A stretch of DNA of 44,082 nucleotides from an uncultured Alteromonas sp. (GTDB lineage Bacteria; Pseudomonadota; Gammaproteobacteria; Enterobacterales; Alteromonadaceae). Made by a program: the position numbers and the translations under genes. Positions within the stretch are counted from its first letter, which is position 1. Each line of letters opens with the position of its first letter. Where the stretch lies: the NCBI RefSeq assembly GCF_913058315.1, contig NZ_CAJXQY010000024.1, forward strand, positions 1-44,082, given 5' to 3'. The notes below the pieces were generated by a model. It was not told where the DNA came from and ran no database searches. It was given only the letters and a program-made list of their open reading frames with translations. This document shows positions 7,166 through 44,082 of this stretch, in pieces.

Positions 7166-7822
7166 TCAGGCGGGGTAACGTTGTTGCAAGCCCTGATAGA
7201 CCTCTTCGGCATAATCAGGGTTATTAATGTCCAGTGCGTCCAGCACATCCACCAGATGTTCATTATCTTCACGGCCCTGCCAGGTTTTTTGATAGGTGCC
7301 GGCCTTGTAGCCATTATCCTGACGGAAAAAGTTCAGTACGTTTTTACCGACATACTGACGGTAGAGTTCGTCACCGCTCATTTCGCACTGTTCAACAATG
7401 TGCATAAACAAAGGGACGCTGAAACGTTTCGCAGCACACAAGCCAGCCATGAGTTCCAGGTTATCCAGTAAGTCCTGCTGCTTTATGGCGTAATCTGTAC
7501 CATCAAAGGTCACCATGGGATCGGCTTGCTGGGCGAGTTGGGCTGCCAGGGCATGAGCTGTAGCATCAACATCGCCGCTATAGTCGATGATGCTTGCCGA
7601 CAAGGCAAAGTGCCAGATATCAACCAGTTCCATTTGCAGTTGCGCAAGGTCCTTATTCTGCGCCTTCCACCATTTCCAGCCATGGTGCTCAATTGCTTCC
7701 ACTGACTCCACCATGGCGGCTCTTAAATAGCCATATCCGGCGGTTAACCACTGGGGGTTCACTTTACAGTTCATTTTATTCTGCAGCGACAACATGGTGT
7801 TTAATTGTTGTTGAGTAAGCAT
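7166..7822 (-). CDS. Dimeric-type dUTP diphosphatase (all-alpha NTP-PPase)
   Basis: This 218-residue protein matches the dimeric dUTPase/MazG-related all-alpha family rather than the trimeric Dut family. Metal-binding signatures are seen near residues 39-51 (ESVEAIEHHGWKWWK) and 63-70 (ELVDIWHF), with a later Asp/Asn-rich helix (LLDNLELMAGL) and the lysine/glycine-rich FRQDNGYKAGTYQK segment expected in the C-terminal part. It would hydrolyse dUTP to dUMP and keep uracil out of DNA. It reads alone, leftward, with its promoter in the 7823-8110 gap. Confidence 0.9.
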   Translation of the reverse strand: MLTQQQLNTMLSLQNKMNCKVNPQWLTAGYGYLRAAMVESVEAIEHHGWKWWKAQNKDLAQLQMELVDIWHFALSASIIDYSGDVDATAHALAAQLAQQADPMVTFDGTDYAIKQQDLLDNLELMAGLCAAKRFSVPLFMHIVEQCEMSGDELYRQYVGKNVLNFFRQDNGYKAGTYQKTWQGREDNEHLVDVLDALDINNPDYAEEVYQGLQQRYPA

Positions 7823-7984
7823 AATTTACCTAATTATTGGGGGTAGTTATCGGAGCGGCAATGCGAAGCAAGAGGCATGAATTGCTGTCCTGGTATTCAG
7901 GCGGCTAGTCTACCACGGTGGATTCACCGGATGAACGTTCGTGTGGGTAAAATCGCATTCTTGGTGGGTTGCGCCCGGTTTCGC

Positions 7985-8007
7985 TGCACTTTTAATGAGC
8001 GCGTGCA
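7985..8007. promoter_or_regulatory. Candidate enhancer dyad upstream of the sigma-54 promoter
   Basis: TGCAC (7985-7989) and GTGCA (8003-8007) form an inverted repeat with a 13-base spacer. It lies about 105-125 bases upstream of the predicted sigma-54 start site, the usual distance for activator binding. The spacer is longer than in NtrC sites (7), so the activator is not identified; the dyad may also be chance. Confidence 0.3.
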
Positions 8008-8082
8008 CCAATATGAGGAAGCATTAGAATTTATACGATTTGCAGGATTTTTGTAAATTATTGATTTTTATGATTTTAAATG

Positions 8083-8099
8083 TTGGCACTTATTCTGCA
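8083..8099 (+). promoter_or_regulatory. Sigma-54 (RpoN) -24/-12 promoter
   Basis: The sequence TTGGCACTTATTCTGCA matches the TTGGCAC-N5-TTGCA consensus with one mismatch. The diagnostic GG (8085-8086) and GC (8097-8098) are separated by exactly 10 bases as required. Predicted start of transcription is about 8110. There is no open reading frame with a ribosome binding site between it and the terminator at 8197-8240. Confidence 0.7.
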
Positions 8100-8109
8100 A
8101 TGTCAAGGT

Positions 8110-8240
8110 TGTTAACTGCGCTAAATTCTGGCGCTAACTTTGGCCGGTGCCAGGCAACGCCGGCTCAAAGTTGTCAGAATGTGGCCCGTAACCTTCCCCA
8201 TACAGATTTTTCGTGTCCTGAGGTCTGTATGGGTTTTTTT
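8110..8240 (+). ncRNA. Candidate sigma-54-dependent small RNA (or recC leader)
   Basis: A transcript of about 130 bases is bounded by the sigma-54 promoter and a strong intrinsic terminator. Inside it, 8125-8180 folds into one long hairpin: ATTCTG pairs with CAGAAT, AACTTTG with CAAAGTT, and GCCGG with CCGGC across a small bulge, interrupted by one internal loop. The terminator stem forms a second hairpin with a 17-base loop and a U7 tail, the kind of 3' end Hfq-binding RNAs have. It does not match Qrr, Spot 42 or GlmY/GlmZ as I know them. The alternative is a terminated leader of recC, whose start lies 132 bases downstream on the same strand. Confidence 0.55.
8197..8240 (+). terminator. Strong intrinsic terminator before recC
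   Basis: A perfect 10-bp stem, CCCATACAGA (8197-8206) with TCTGTATGGG (8224-8233), has a 17-base loop and is followed by seven T. No gene precedes it on this strand; the dUTPase reads the other way. Confidence 0.9.
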
Positions 8241-8371
8241 ATGTCCGAATTCTGATGCGCGTTAATATAGCCCACTGCGCATATTTTGGCCAGTTAATTT
8301 TCCCGCATATTTCTAAATTCATCCTTAAGGTGCATACTAGGCGTTCATTCGGTAACAGGAACACCGACGCT

Positions 8372-11300
8372 TTGCTCACTCTTTATCCGTCAAATAAACT
8401 CGAACATCTCAGCTTTTTACTGGCCACTTTGCTTGACCGTCAACCCGCAGCGGGTTTGAGTGCGGACGTGATCCTGGTGGAAAGCCCCGGTATGCAACAC
8501 TGGTTAAGTATGGAGCTGGCCGCCAGTCGTGGTATTGCCATGAATATTGACTATCCCTTACCGGTGAGGTTTATGTGGGATACCGCCAGGGCTGTGCTGG
8601 GCCCGGATGCCGTGCCCCGTGAATCACCATTCCGGCGGGAAACCCTGCGCTGGCGGATTTATGGTTTACTGAGGCAGACAGAACAATTAGCTCACCCGGC
8701 GATGGAGCGTGTGCAGCGCTTTCTGGATAAAAGTGAAGCCAATGGTAGTGGTCATCTGCAAACCCTGCAACTGGCAGTGGCCCTGGCCGACCTGTTGGAA
8801 CAGTATTTATTATACCGGCCCGACTGGTTGCTGGCCTGGGAACAGCATCAGCAGGTTGTGGCCGAGGATGCCGACGAAATCTGGCAGGCCCATATCTGGC
8901 GCCTGTTGGTAAAAGATACGCCGGCTCACCCGGCGCGGCTGCATGAACAAATGGTAGCTGCCTTGCAACAGCCATCCCAGGCCGTACTCAATAGTTTACC
9001 CCGGCGTATTATCCTGTTTGCGATAAATACCATGGCCCCACAGTTTGTGGCGTTTCTGGATGCATTGGCTGAATGGGTGGATGTCCATTTATTCCATTTA
9101 AACCCCTGCGTCAACTACTGGGGGAATCTTGCCAGCCGTGGTGAACAGGCGCGGGTGCTCCGGGAACAAGGGATCAGCGCCTGGCTGGAGCAGTCTCAGG
9201 AAAACCCCTTACTGGCTAATCTGGGGCGCCAGGGGCGCGATCTGTTTAATCAGCTCACCGAACTACAAAGCTATGAGATTAGTGCCTTCGATATGCCTGC
9301 ACCGGATGAGCAAGCCGCTCAAACCACGGTATTAAACCAGATGCAACACGATATACTGGAGGCGAATAACCCCCGTCAGAACTTTGTGTGGGCTGATGGC
9401 GATGACAGTATCCTGATCAATTCTGCTCACAGTACCCTGCGTGAAGTCCAGTCGCTGCATGACTATTTACTCGACCGATTAGCCGCCGATCCGGCGTTGC
9501 AGCCTCGGGATATTCTGGTGATGTGCCCAGCCATTGAAGACTATGCGCCGGCTATCGAAGCGGTCTTTGCCCGAGTCGGGACGGTAAGCGGCGACGATGA
9601 CGCCTCGCCACGTCTTCCCTGTACCATTGCAGACCGTTCGCCATTGGATGCTGAGCCATTGGTGGCGGCGTTTTTGTCGCTATTATCGTTGCCTGATAGT
9701 CGTTTCAGTGTCACGCAAATTCTCGAGTACCTGAGTCTGGCACCGTTGCAGCGCAAATTTGGTTTAACCGAACAGAGTCTGACGGTGATTGAGTACTGGC
9801 TGGAACGGGCCAATATTCACTGGGGGCTGGATGGCCGGCATAAGGCAGAAATAACCGCATCTGCCGCAGACAGTCCAATGTACAGCTGGCGCTGGGGGCT
9901 TCAGCGCTTGTTGCTGGGAATGATCAGTGAAGATGCCACTCAGTTGCTGGATAACTGTGTAACCGTGCCCGATGTTGAAGGGCAGGAAAGTATTGAACTG
10001 GGCCGGTTGATGCTGATCGTGGAGCAATTGCAAATTCACAATCGCGAGCTGAGTCGCTCTCGCACCGCCGATGACTGGCAGGCCTACTTAAATACGCTGC
10101 GGGAGGATTGTTTTATACCCGGCAGTGATGATATTGACAGCTGGGAAAGTATTGGTAAAACGATTGCCGATATGGCGCTGCAGTGCGAGCAAGCCGGGTA
10201 CAGCGGAGAACTGAGTCTGGCTGAGGTGCGCGACATCTTAACCAAGCGCTTTGCCACTCCGGATGCGGGTAACCATTTTATGACCGGACAGGTCACTTTC
10301 TGCTCCATGCTTCCCATGCGTAGTATTCCATTTAGTGTGATTGGCATTCTGGGGCTCAATGACGGTGATTTCCCGCGCACTAATCCGCCCGGCAGTATCA
10401 ATATGATGGCGCGACACCCGGGGCGCCTCGGTGATCGGTCCCGCCGTCAGGAAGACCGCTACCTGTTTCTGGAAGCATTAATATCAGCCCGTCAGGCGCT
10501 TTATCTGAGTTATCAGGGGCGCAGTGCGTTGAATAATGCTGAGCGCCAACCCAGTCTGGTGCTTCAGGAGCTGATGGATTTTCTCGAGCAAGCCTATAAC
10601 TGGCAACCACAAGCGGTGCGTCAACTGCCGCTGCACCCTTTCAGTCCGGCGGTGTTTAATAGCGAACGACCTGCTTACAGCAAAGGCTGGTACAGGCTGG
10701 CGAAGTCGATTGCCGGTTTACAGGAAGAAGATATCGATAGCGTCATACAGGTCGCGGCCTCAGCGCATCAAACCCGACAGCTCAGCGCCACCGAGATGGC
10801 CCGCTGTTTCGACGATCCACTGGCCTGGCTGGCAAAACAACTTGGCCTCAGATTGGAACTCGACAACCGGTTGTTAGAAGACAGTGAGCCGTTTGAAACG
10901 AACAAGCTTAGTCGCTACCAGTACGTTGATGAACTGGTGACCAATCAGGCAAATACCAGCGCCGAAACACTCACTGCTGAGTTTTTGCTAAGTGGTGATC
11001 TGCCTGACACCCCCATCACCCGGGCCGAACTGGCGACCTGGCAGGAAGCGGCAACGTTACTCCGCCAGGCCGTGCCCGGGGACGATGAGCATCTGCTGGC
11101 AAGTCGGGTGACCTTGGATGACTGGCAGCTTTTCTCCACCTGTTATGAGGAGGAGGCCGCGCTGGTGAGCTATCACGTCGGTCAGCATCAAATCAGACGC
11201 AGCTTTACCGCCTGGCTGACCATGCTGATTGCTAACAGTCAGGGGGTAATAAAGCCGTTGACGCTGCATTATATCGACTGGAAAAAGCAGCCGCTGGCAT

Positions 11301-11659
11301 TGAAATCTGAGACCTATGAACCCCTCACGGCCGACGAAGCCATGGCACAGTTAACCAGGCTGGTGACAGCAATCAAGCAAATTGAACAAGGGCCGAGTTT
11401 ACTCTATCTGGCCGTTGCTGAAGCGTTTTATAAATATGCCGGGATGACCACCGACCACGATGACTGGTTCCAAAGTCATGAAATCAGCAAACGGTGGGAC
11501 GACATTACTGATCCGAATAATGCGTTTAGCAAGCTTGGCAGTAACGGTTATTTTAACTGGTTTTACAACTATATACCGCCGGCTACGCAGTTGCCTTTAG
11601 GGCATTTAGCCGACCTCTACAGTGCCTTCCTGAGTAATTTTAAAAGGGGCAGAAAATGA
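8372..11659 (+). CDS. recC: RecBCD exonuclease V subunit RecC
   Basis: A 1095-residue RecC, close to the usual ~1120. RecC is the scaffold and Chi-recognition subunit of the RecBCD helicase-nuclease that processes double-strand breaks. The start is taken as TTG 8372: translation from it reads MLTLYPSNKL, aligning end to end with the family start (MLRVYHSNRL in E. coli), and AGGA sits 11 bases upstream. The frame is open back to an ATG at 8255, but those 39 residues have no family counterpart and no good ribosome site. Typical stretches include ILVESPGMQHWLSMEL, NIDYPLPVRFMWD, VTFCSMLPMRSIPF and a C-terminal YNYIPP. It overlaps recB by ATGA. Confidence 0.96.
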   Translation: MLTLYPSNKLEHLSFLLATLLDRQPAAGLSADVILVESPGMQHWLSMELAASRGIAMNIDYPLPVRFMWDTARAVLGPDAVPRESPFRRETLRWRIYGLLRQTEQLAHPAMERVQRFLDKSEANGSGHLQTLQLAVALADLLEQYLLYRPDWLLAWEQHQQVVAEDADEIWQAHIWRLLVKDTPAHPARLHEQMVAALQQPSQAVLNSLPRRIILFAINTMAPQFVAFLDALAEWVDVHLFHLNPCVNYWGNLASRGEQARVLREQGISAWLEQSQENPLLANLGRQGRDLFNQLTELQSYEISAFDMPAPDEQAAQTTVLNQMQHDILEANNPRQNFVWADGDDSILINSAHSTLREVQSLHDYLLDRLAADPALQPRDILVMCPAIEDYAPAIEAVFARVGTVSGDDDASPRLPCTIADRSPLDAEPLVAAFLSLLSLPDSRFSVTQILEYLSLAPLQRKFGLTEQSLTVIEYWLERANIHWGLDGRHKAEITASAADSPMYSWRWGLQRLLLGMISEDATQLLDNCVTVPDVEGQESIELGRLMLIVEQLQIHNRELSRSRTADDWQAYLNTLREDCFIPGSDDIDSWESIGKTIADMALQCEQAGYSGELSLAEVRDILTKRFATPDAGNHFMTGQVTFCSMLPMRSIPFSVIGILGLNDGDFPRTNPPGSINMMARHPGRLGDRSRRQEDRYLFLEALISARQALYLSYQGRSALNNAERQPSLVLQELMDFLEQAYNWQPQAVRQLPLHPFSPAVFNSERPAYSKGWYRLAKSIAGLQEEDIDSVIQVAASAHQTRQLSATEMARCFDDPLAWLAKQLGLRLELDNRLLEDSEPFETNKLSRYQYVDELVTNQANTSAETLTAEFLLSGDLPDTPITRAELATWQEAATLLRQAVPGDDEHLLASRVTLDDWQLFSTCYEEEAALVSYHVGQHQIRRSFTAWLTMLIANSQGVIKPLTLHYIDWKKQPLALKSETYEPLTADEAMAQLTRLVTAIKQIEQGPSLLYLAVAEAFYKYAGMTTDHDDWFQSHEISKRWDDITDPNNAFSKLGSNGYFNWFYNYIPPATQLPLGHLADLYSAFLSNFKRGRK

Positions 11660-44027: not shown

Positions 44028-44082
<55 letters not shown>

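Follow-up and report, generated by a model that had tools for sequence, protein, structure and literature searches.

To our knowledge, few sigma-54-driven small RNAs are known. NtrC/RpoN-dependent sRNAs, trans-acting RNAs derived from leaders and sponge RNAs related to ANTAR leaders have already been described. NrsZ of Pseudomonas has been described as an NtrB/C- and RpoN-dependent sRNA of about 226 nt, which responds to nitrogen limitation, lies beside ntrC and is processed (PMC8395346), and EutX and Rli55 as stand-alone, ANTAR-sequestering sRNAs related to ANTAR leaders (PMC7602753). In ANTAR-controlled leaders, a further report places the P2 hairpin at the foot of the terminator, with a hexaloop whose A1 and G4 are needed for binding in the systems studied (PMC3369931). 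Other papers describe RepG of Helicobacter pylori, whose seed lies in a C/U-rich terminator loop (PMC8295292), and the leader-derived, trans-acting RNAs Vsr217 (from the malK 5' UTR), rnTrpL and RZ (PMC8265627, PMC7298713, PMC9373788). Two RNAs of A. macleodii, AltRNa1 (424 nt, at 1.07 Mb of AltDE1) and AltRNa2 (309 nt, at 4.31 Mb), are reported in PMC4223743, and nothing in the sections of that paper that concern them equates either with the RNA described here. The open-licence literature yielded no stand-alone sRNA that combines the promoter and terminator loop of a nitrate leader but is devoid of the ANTAR switch.

Here we analysed a stretch of 44,082 nucleotides from an Alteromonas genome (the window), in which the gap between a dUTPase-type gene and recC probably holds an RNA of this kind (the recC-locus RNA), namely a stand-alone regulatory sRNA of nitrogen limitation that is driven by NtrC and sigma-54, most likely acts in trans and is most likely a former nitrate-operon leader. 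The region comprises the following features, those within the unit being predicted ones.

7166-7822, minus strand: upstream neighbour, dUTPase_2 family (PF08761)
7985-8020, plus strand: two adjacent NtrC-type enhancer sites (7985-8001, 9/14; 8004-8020, 11/14) scored against the consensus TGCACYANNNTRGTGCA
8054-8066, minus strand: IHF-type site, 9/9 positions of the consensus WATCAANNNNTTR (background 0.14 per kb)
8083-8099, plus strand: sigma-54 -24/-12 promoter TTGGCACTTATTCTGCA, GG at 8085-8086 and GC at 8097-8098, 10 bases between
8109-8240, plus strand: stand-alone small RNA of about 130 nt, its start placed by promoter geometry (+/-2 nt) and its end by the terminator
8121-8184, plus strand: hairpin 1, interrupted, with apical loop CCAGGCAA (8150-8157); 24 pairs, 20 of them changed on both sides
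8187-8198, plus strand: CGT-AACCTT-CCC, corresponding to the ANTAR P2 hairpin but degenerate, with C as the fourth loop base and a broken stem
8197-8240, plus strand: intrinsic terminator, 10-bp covarying stem followed by seven T, read directly
8209-8222, plus strand: terminator-loop stretch TTTCGTGTCCTGAG, the proposed seed, invariant in 32 aligned same-genus copies
8372-11659, plus strand: recC, downstream neighbour outside the unit (PF04257, PF17946), probable start TTG at 8372

An earlier note on this DNA had proposed a sigma-54-driven unit that encodes a small RNA, with a GG and a GC set 10 bases apart, and direct reading of 8083-8099 bore this spacing out; the site, described there as one mismatch from the RpoN consensus, has two, as it matches 11 of the 13 positions of TTGGCACGNNNNTTGCW. 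No site as good was found elsewhere in the window. A looser sigma-54 pattern taken alone gave four matches in the window against 5.76 expected, no excess over chance, and the promoter call therefore depends on conservation. TGGCA lies 128-131 nt upstream of TGTCCTGA in all 34 same-genus copies located by TGTCCTGA, and this is the fair count, because the promoter alignments (A2-A4) had been chosen by TGGCA and its invariance there follows from that selection.

Upstream of the promoter, the letters TGCAC and GTGCA reported in the earlier note are present (7985-7989 and 8003-8007), but they fit two adjacent NtrC-type sites better than the dyad proposed there. A score of 9/14, as at 7985-8001, has a background rate of 5.5 per kb, and that site alone is no better than background; the rate for 11/14, as at 8004-8020, is 0.11 per kb. 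Among 35 aligned promoters (33 same-genus copies and two nitrate leaders), the best NtrC-type site scores at least 10/14 in 33, the range being 9/14 to 12/14, and in 31 the score, which takes account of sequence only, lies above mononucleotide shuffles at 0.05. In 30 of the same 35 promoters an IHF-type site lies at -30/-31 from TGGCA; the IHF-type score is 9/9 in 13 and 8/9 in 19, and only the 13 with 9/9 exceed shuffles at 0.05. The genome itself encodes glnA-ntrB-ntrC (NtrC match, E 6.6e-229) and has NtrC-type sites upstream of glnA (11/14 and 12/14), ntrB (13/14) and the nas operon (12/14 and 11/14), with two further 11/14 sites elsewhere in the 7.4-kb glnA-ntrC stretch. The nas operon also has an IHF site of 9/9 and a sigma-54 site of 10/13, in the same NtrC-IHF-sigma-54 order as the window. 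The scan for NtrC-type sites also gave two inside genes. The sequence hallmarks of an NtrC/RpoN-dependent sRNA, a sigma-54 promoter with NtrC-type sites at enhancer distance, were thus found at this locus.

The RNA predicted from this promoter folds much better than its shuffles (z -5.84, 0/200). The interrupted hairpin previously placed at 8125-8180 was confirmed, with an extent of about 8121-8184, and so was the perfect 10-bp terminator with U7 (stem 8197-8206/8224-8233, T 8234-8240); a terminator scan of the window reported none, missing 8197-8240 because its loop limit was 8 and the actual loop is longer. In an alignment of 32 copies (31 distinct), 95.6% of cells are paired and 28 of 40 pairs show change on both sides. 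The covariation score is 0.424 against 0.184 +/- 0.010 for shuffled alignments, none of 500 shuffles being as high; the shuffles ignore relatedness, and sliding the partners, a control that keeps relatedness, gave 0.05-0.08. Alignments A2-A4 do not include L031, and A2 does not include L032, in which hairpin 1 is lost. Of the invariant stretches of the RNA, the two longest are TTTCGTGTCCTGAG, within the terminator, and GCCAGGCAAC, which surrounds the loop of hairpin 1 and does not vary among the 32 same-genus copies aligned. A peptide-coding reading of 8109-8240 was rejected on the grounds of paired-base covariation and of single-base insertions in the alignment.

Rfam gave no gathering-score match in the window except a tRNA, and none at E up to 1 in 7950-8300, which agrees with the earlier view that this RNA is unlike Qrr, GlmY/GlmZ and CrcZ; in six related loci only three matches were obtained, all under the gathering score. 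A tRNA gene at 44028-44082 is truncated by the window end. With promoter and hairpin both kept in relatives, covarying stems and no Rfam match, the putative sigma-54 unit for a small RNA stands, and the lack of conservation in close relatives that would speak against it was not observed.

A blastn search with 8060-8250 among 60 relatives matched the genome of origin and 33 of the 35 other genomes of the genus, and none of 24 genomes from other families. The closest named relatives are Alteromonas species and other Alteromonadaceae, and 18 of 25 named recBCD loci contain a strong model match to the RNA (E at most 1.3e-14). Copies at the recC locus, between a dUTPase-type gene and recC, also occur in genera g36 (three genomes) and g44 (one genome), where they carry the terminator loop of the nitrate leaders (with one base changed in L185) without P2; in two of the three g36 copies TGGTAT stands in place of TGGCA.

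Outside the genus, other members of the family also have the terminator and its loop UUUCGUGUCCUG, in most cases as the terminators of nitrate-transport leaders, and the core of TTTCGTGTCCTGAG is common to many of these leaders and to stand-alone RNAs of other genera. A model of the terminator module (R1) found matches in 54 of 295 family genomes, which belong to 14 of 52 genera, that of the window among them; since R1 contains the loop, this search favours loop-bearing leaders. The reading of out-of-genus matches covered 35 of 43: 20 precede nrtA- or NarK-type genes, nine are stand-alone (no adjacent nitrate gene), one precedes a nirB-like and one a moaA-like gene, two follow a NasS-like gene and two are generic terminators. 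The proteins that we take to be NrtA, NasS, NirB and MoaA were named by sequence recognition and context; a domain search gave NMT1-like domains for one NrtA and one NasS type, and MFS, the NarK model remaining under its cut-off. In the genome of origin the NIT-ANTAR, formate/nitrite transporter, dUTPase_2 and RecC domains were confirmed. A second model (R2), run with strict filters on 369 genomes of the class, matched eight genomes outside the family, weakly (E 7.5e-5 to 9.1e-4); by eye most of these matches are generic terminators, and two (L196 and L197) resemble ANTAR-type leaders that lack the loop motif.

At the foot of their terminators the nitrate leaders carry GGC-AnnGnn-GCC, which fits the ANTAR P2 hairpin. 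P2 is complete (A1/G4) in all 24 leaders scored, and A1 together with G4 occurs in none of 15 stand-alone RNAs, a count in which leader and stand-alone labels come from neighbouring genes (L180 and L182 being leaders on weaker context) and from which L186 (A1/G4, closing pair broken) and L165, L167, L171 and L173 (close relatives of retained rows) are excluded. The stand-alone RNA L166 keeps the three P2 stem pairs but is without A1 and G4. No consistent ANTAR P1 hairpin (A1/G4) was found by eye in the leaders or in the window RNA; given its absence from the leaders, our ANTAR claim is confined to P2. By both marks of an ANTAR leader the recC-locus RNA differs from one, its P2 being degenerate and the next gene being recC, with no nitrate operon.

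The loop motif is missing from leaders L183, L189, L190 and L192, so ANTAR-type control is apparently independent of it. Within the genus, a pattern scan that demands A1 and G4 by construction found 16 ANTAR-type leaders in 15 genomes, none with the loop motif, and there is thus no support for descent from those present leaders; in this genus the loop is carried by the stand-alone RNA and not by the ANTAR leaders found by pattern.

Several other arrangements were observed. The nirB leader of the genome of origin (L130:4606-4768, contig C97) has a sigma-54-type site, an ANTAR-type P2 (GGC-AACGAA-GCC) and, within its 5' hairpin loop, GCCAGGCAA, nine bases that also stand in the invariant loop of the window RNA; this match may be due to chance, since none of the other nirB leaders scanned upstream of P2 contains it. 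The nas leader before the formate/nitrite transporter gene (L130:1720-1841) has another terminator loop and, by eye, the P2 GGAU-AAAGGC-GUCC with A1/G4, and between the nitrite transporter gene and nirB lies an apparent PP2C phosphatase-protein kinase fusion (L130:2774-4492, 572 aa, by eye). Genome G005 (7% contamination) has a second, leader-type copy before a NarK-type gene on C75 (L035), possibly a contaminant contig. A moaA-like (molybdenum cofactor) gene is headed in genus g41 by the module (L182:1767-1832), whose ANTAR-type P2 is complete there, an arrangement that would bring cofactor synthesis under the same control.

In genus g34, leader and stand-alone RNA occur at one and the same locus. 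Two genomes have the order GNAT - module - nrtA nrtB nrtC - amidohydrolase and three others, two of them near-identical, GNAT - module - amidohydrolase; a fourth stand-alone genome agrees with these three downstream of the module but has additional genes between it and GNAT (genes named by eye, homology from blastp clusters). The leaders and the stand-alone RNAs can be aligned along much of their length. In the stand-alone pair L262/L264 the RNA is 0.90 identical (167 columns), against 0.71 for the adjacent coding sequence and 0.27 at fourfold sites, indicating strong constraint on the RNA even where the operon is absent; in the leader pair L266/L267 the values are 0.62 for the RNA and 0.70 for coding sequence. 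It is simpler to suppose that the stand-alone genomes lost the operon than that the other two gained it. These relatives suggest that such RNAs may originate from the regulatory leader of a nitrate-uptake operon that stays behind as a gene of its own.

The earlier note had added that the unit may also act as a terminated leader of recCBD and so bring DNA repair under RpoN control, and the RNA does lie between the dUTPase_2-like gene and recC, upstream of and co-oriented with the latter, in all 34 same-genus loci, as well as having its recC-locus copies in g36 and g44. It is, however, lost where recC is kept: the A. lipotrueiana locus (L051) neither matches the model nor has space for the gene, in A. 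aquimaris (L055) and Alteromonas sp. ASW11-130 (L065, E 0.12) only remnants are seen by eye, and recC is open over 1094 matched residues in all three, which argues against a recC leader. The probable recC start, inferred from alignment with relatives, is 131 nt past the terminator, the RNA has no antiterminator hairpin, and the stand-alone copies of g34 and g61 sit elsewhere, not beside recC, so that we regard a role as recC leader as highly improbable. Among the same-genus genomes, G012 has a remnant of the L055 type, G015 retains promoter and terminator without hairpin 1, and G026 lacks the RNA; the last was not used as a clean case of loss because its recC start (L260:2327-2404) matches in two frames, by frameshift or assembly error.

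The module common to this RNA and to ANTAR-type leaders raises instead the question of a protein sponge, which would titrate NasR, the ANTAR antiterminator, or some other RNA-binding protein, in the way that EutV is titrated by EutX and Rli55. The genome of origin encodes one NIT-ANTAR protein, and both same-genus genomes without a blastn match to the RNA are also without a detected ANTAR gene. Yet none of the 33 same-genus copies scored has G4 of P2, and while ANTAR genes were found in 26 of 36 same-genus genomes (the own included), the RNA is present in eight of the ten that have none (in one of them, G015, without hairpin 1); titration of NasR is therefore unlikely as its main role, and we see little chance that the RNA is a sponge at all. 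A similarly small chance is given to a real RNA that does not report nitrogen status, its activator being another enhancer-binding protein, LuxO-like or GlrR-like. This genome encodes about a dozen more proteins whose activator domain matches the NtrC model, most aligned promoters contain GGTGC(A/G)-N2-TGCAC, in an order unlike that of classical NtrC halves, and the best 17-base site reaches just 9/14 to 12/14; against this, sites of the same type precede glnA and ntrB in the same genome, the nas promoter shares the order of the three sites, and the related module heads nitrate-transport genes.

Like NrsZ, the recC-locus RNA is stand-alone with predicted NtrC and sigma-54 control; it is set apart by description, being about 130 nt long and beside recC, whereas NrsZ has about 226 nt, lies beside ntrC and is processed. 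It shares the sigma-54 promoter with the ANTAR (NasR/NasT) nitrate leaders, and in other genera these have the same terminator and loop, but it has no downstream nitrate operon and its P2 is degenerate. EutX and Rli55 have an ANTAR binding site, unlike this RNA, which is without the P2 determinant and does not show the two ANTAR hairpins. RepG offers a precedent for a seed in a terminator loop, loop pairing in the recC-locus RNA being our prediction, and we know of no resemblance in sequence or promoter between the two. The rnTrpL RNA acts in trans. Vsr217, rnTrpL and RZ lie before their operon, while the recC-locus RNA would be an independent gene.

A trans-acting sRNA fits the covarying stems, the invariant loops, the terminator without an antiterminator hairpin and the sigma-54 promoter. 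The earlier interpretation as a sigma-54 sRNA unit is upheld, that as a recCBD leader is not, and NtrC as the probable activator and the kinship with nitrate leaders had been overlooked. In the mechanism that we propose, phosphorylated NtrC would bind at 7985-8020 under nitrogen limitation and, with IHF bending the DNA, would activate sigma-54 polymerase at 8083-8099. The transcript would end at 8240 because the ANTAR antiterminator hairpin is absent, and the invariant terminator loop UUUCGUGUCCUG, whose UCCU is anti-Shine-Dalgarno in character, would be offered in trans to ribosome-binding sites; the second invariant loop, CCAGGCAA, may provide a further contact. As to origin, descent from a nitrate-operon leader is likely, the leader having presumably become an independent gene in which antitermination is no longer possible.

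A target search in 15 genomes for TCAGGACAC before ATG gave 59 matches against 30 for the reversed-pattern control, with no recurrent gene matched at its ribosome-binding site among the 30 loci fetched; one recurrent match appears inside the coding sequence of what we take to be an aconitase-like protein. In 36 genomes the 11-mer TCAGGACACGA had 20 matches outside the RNA gene against 23 for its control, and hence no excess.

A broader reading, which we put forward tentatively and judge somewhat short of an even chance, is that in this family the terminated nitrate leader is itself trans-acting, its loop seed being separate from the ANTAR switch, and that stand-alone sRNAs are born by loss of the operon and of the ANTAR hairpin. 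The leader would then terminate when nitrate is absent, and NtrC would in this way broadcast nitrogen starvation to distant mRNAs; promoter and seed would be what is kept, with g34 showing the step at one locus and the Alteromonas recC-locus RNA being an older case.

How new sRNA genes originate is an open question, and the process is hard to catch in the act. At the g34 locus a leader that acts in cis on its operon can be compared, at the same place, with a stand-alone RNA that has no such operon. If the proposed function of the recC-locus RNA is true, Alteromonas would gain a nitrogen-responsive RNA regulator, of which none was found in the open-licence literature.
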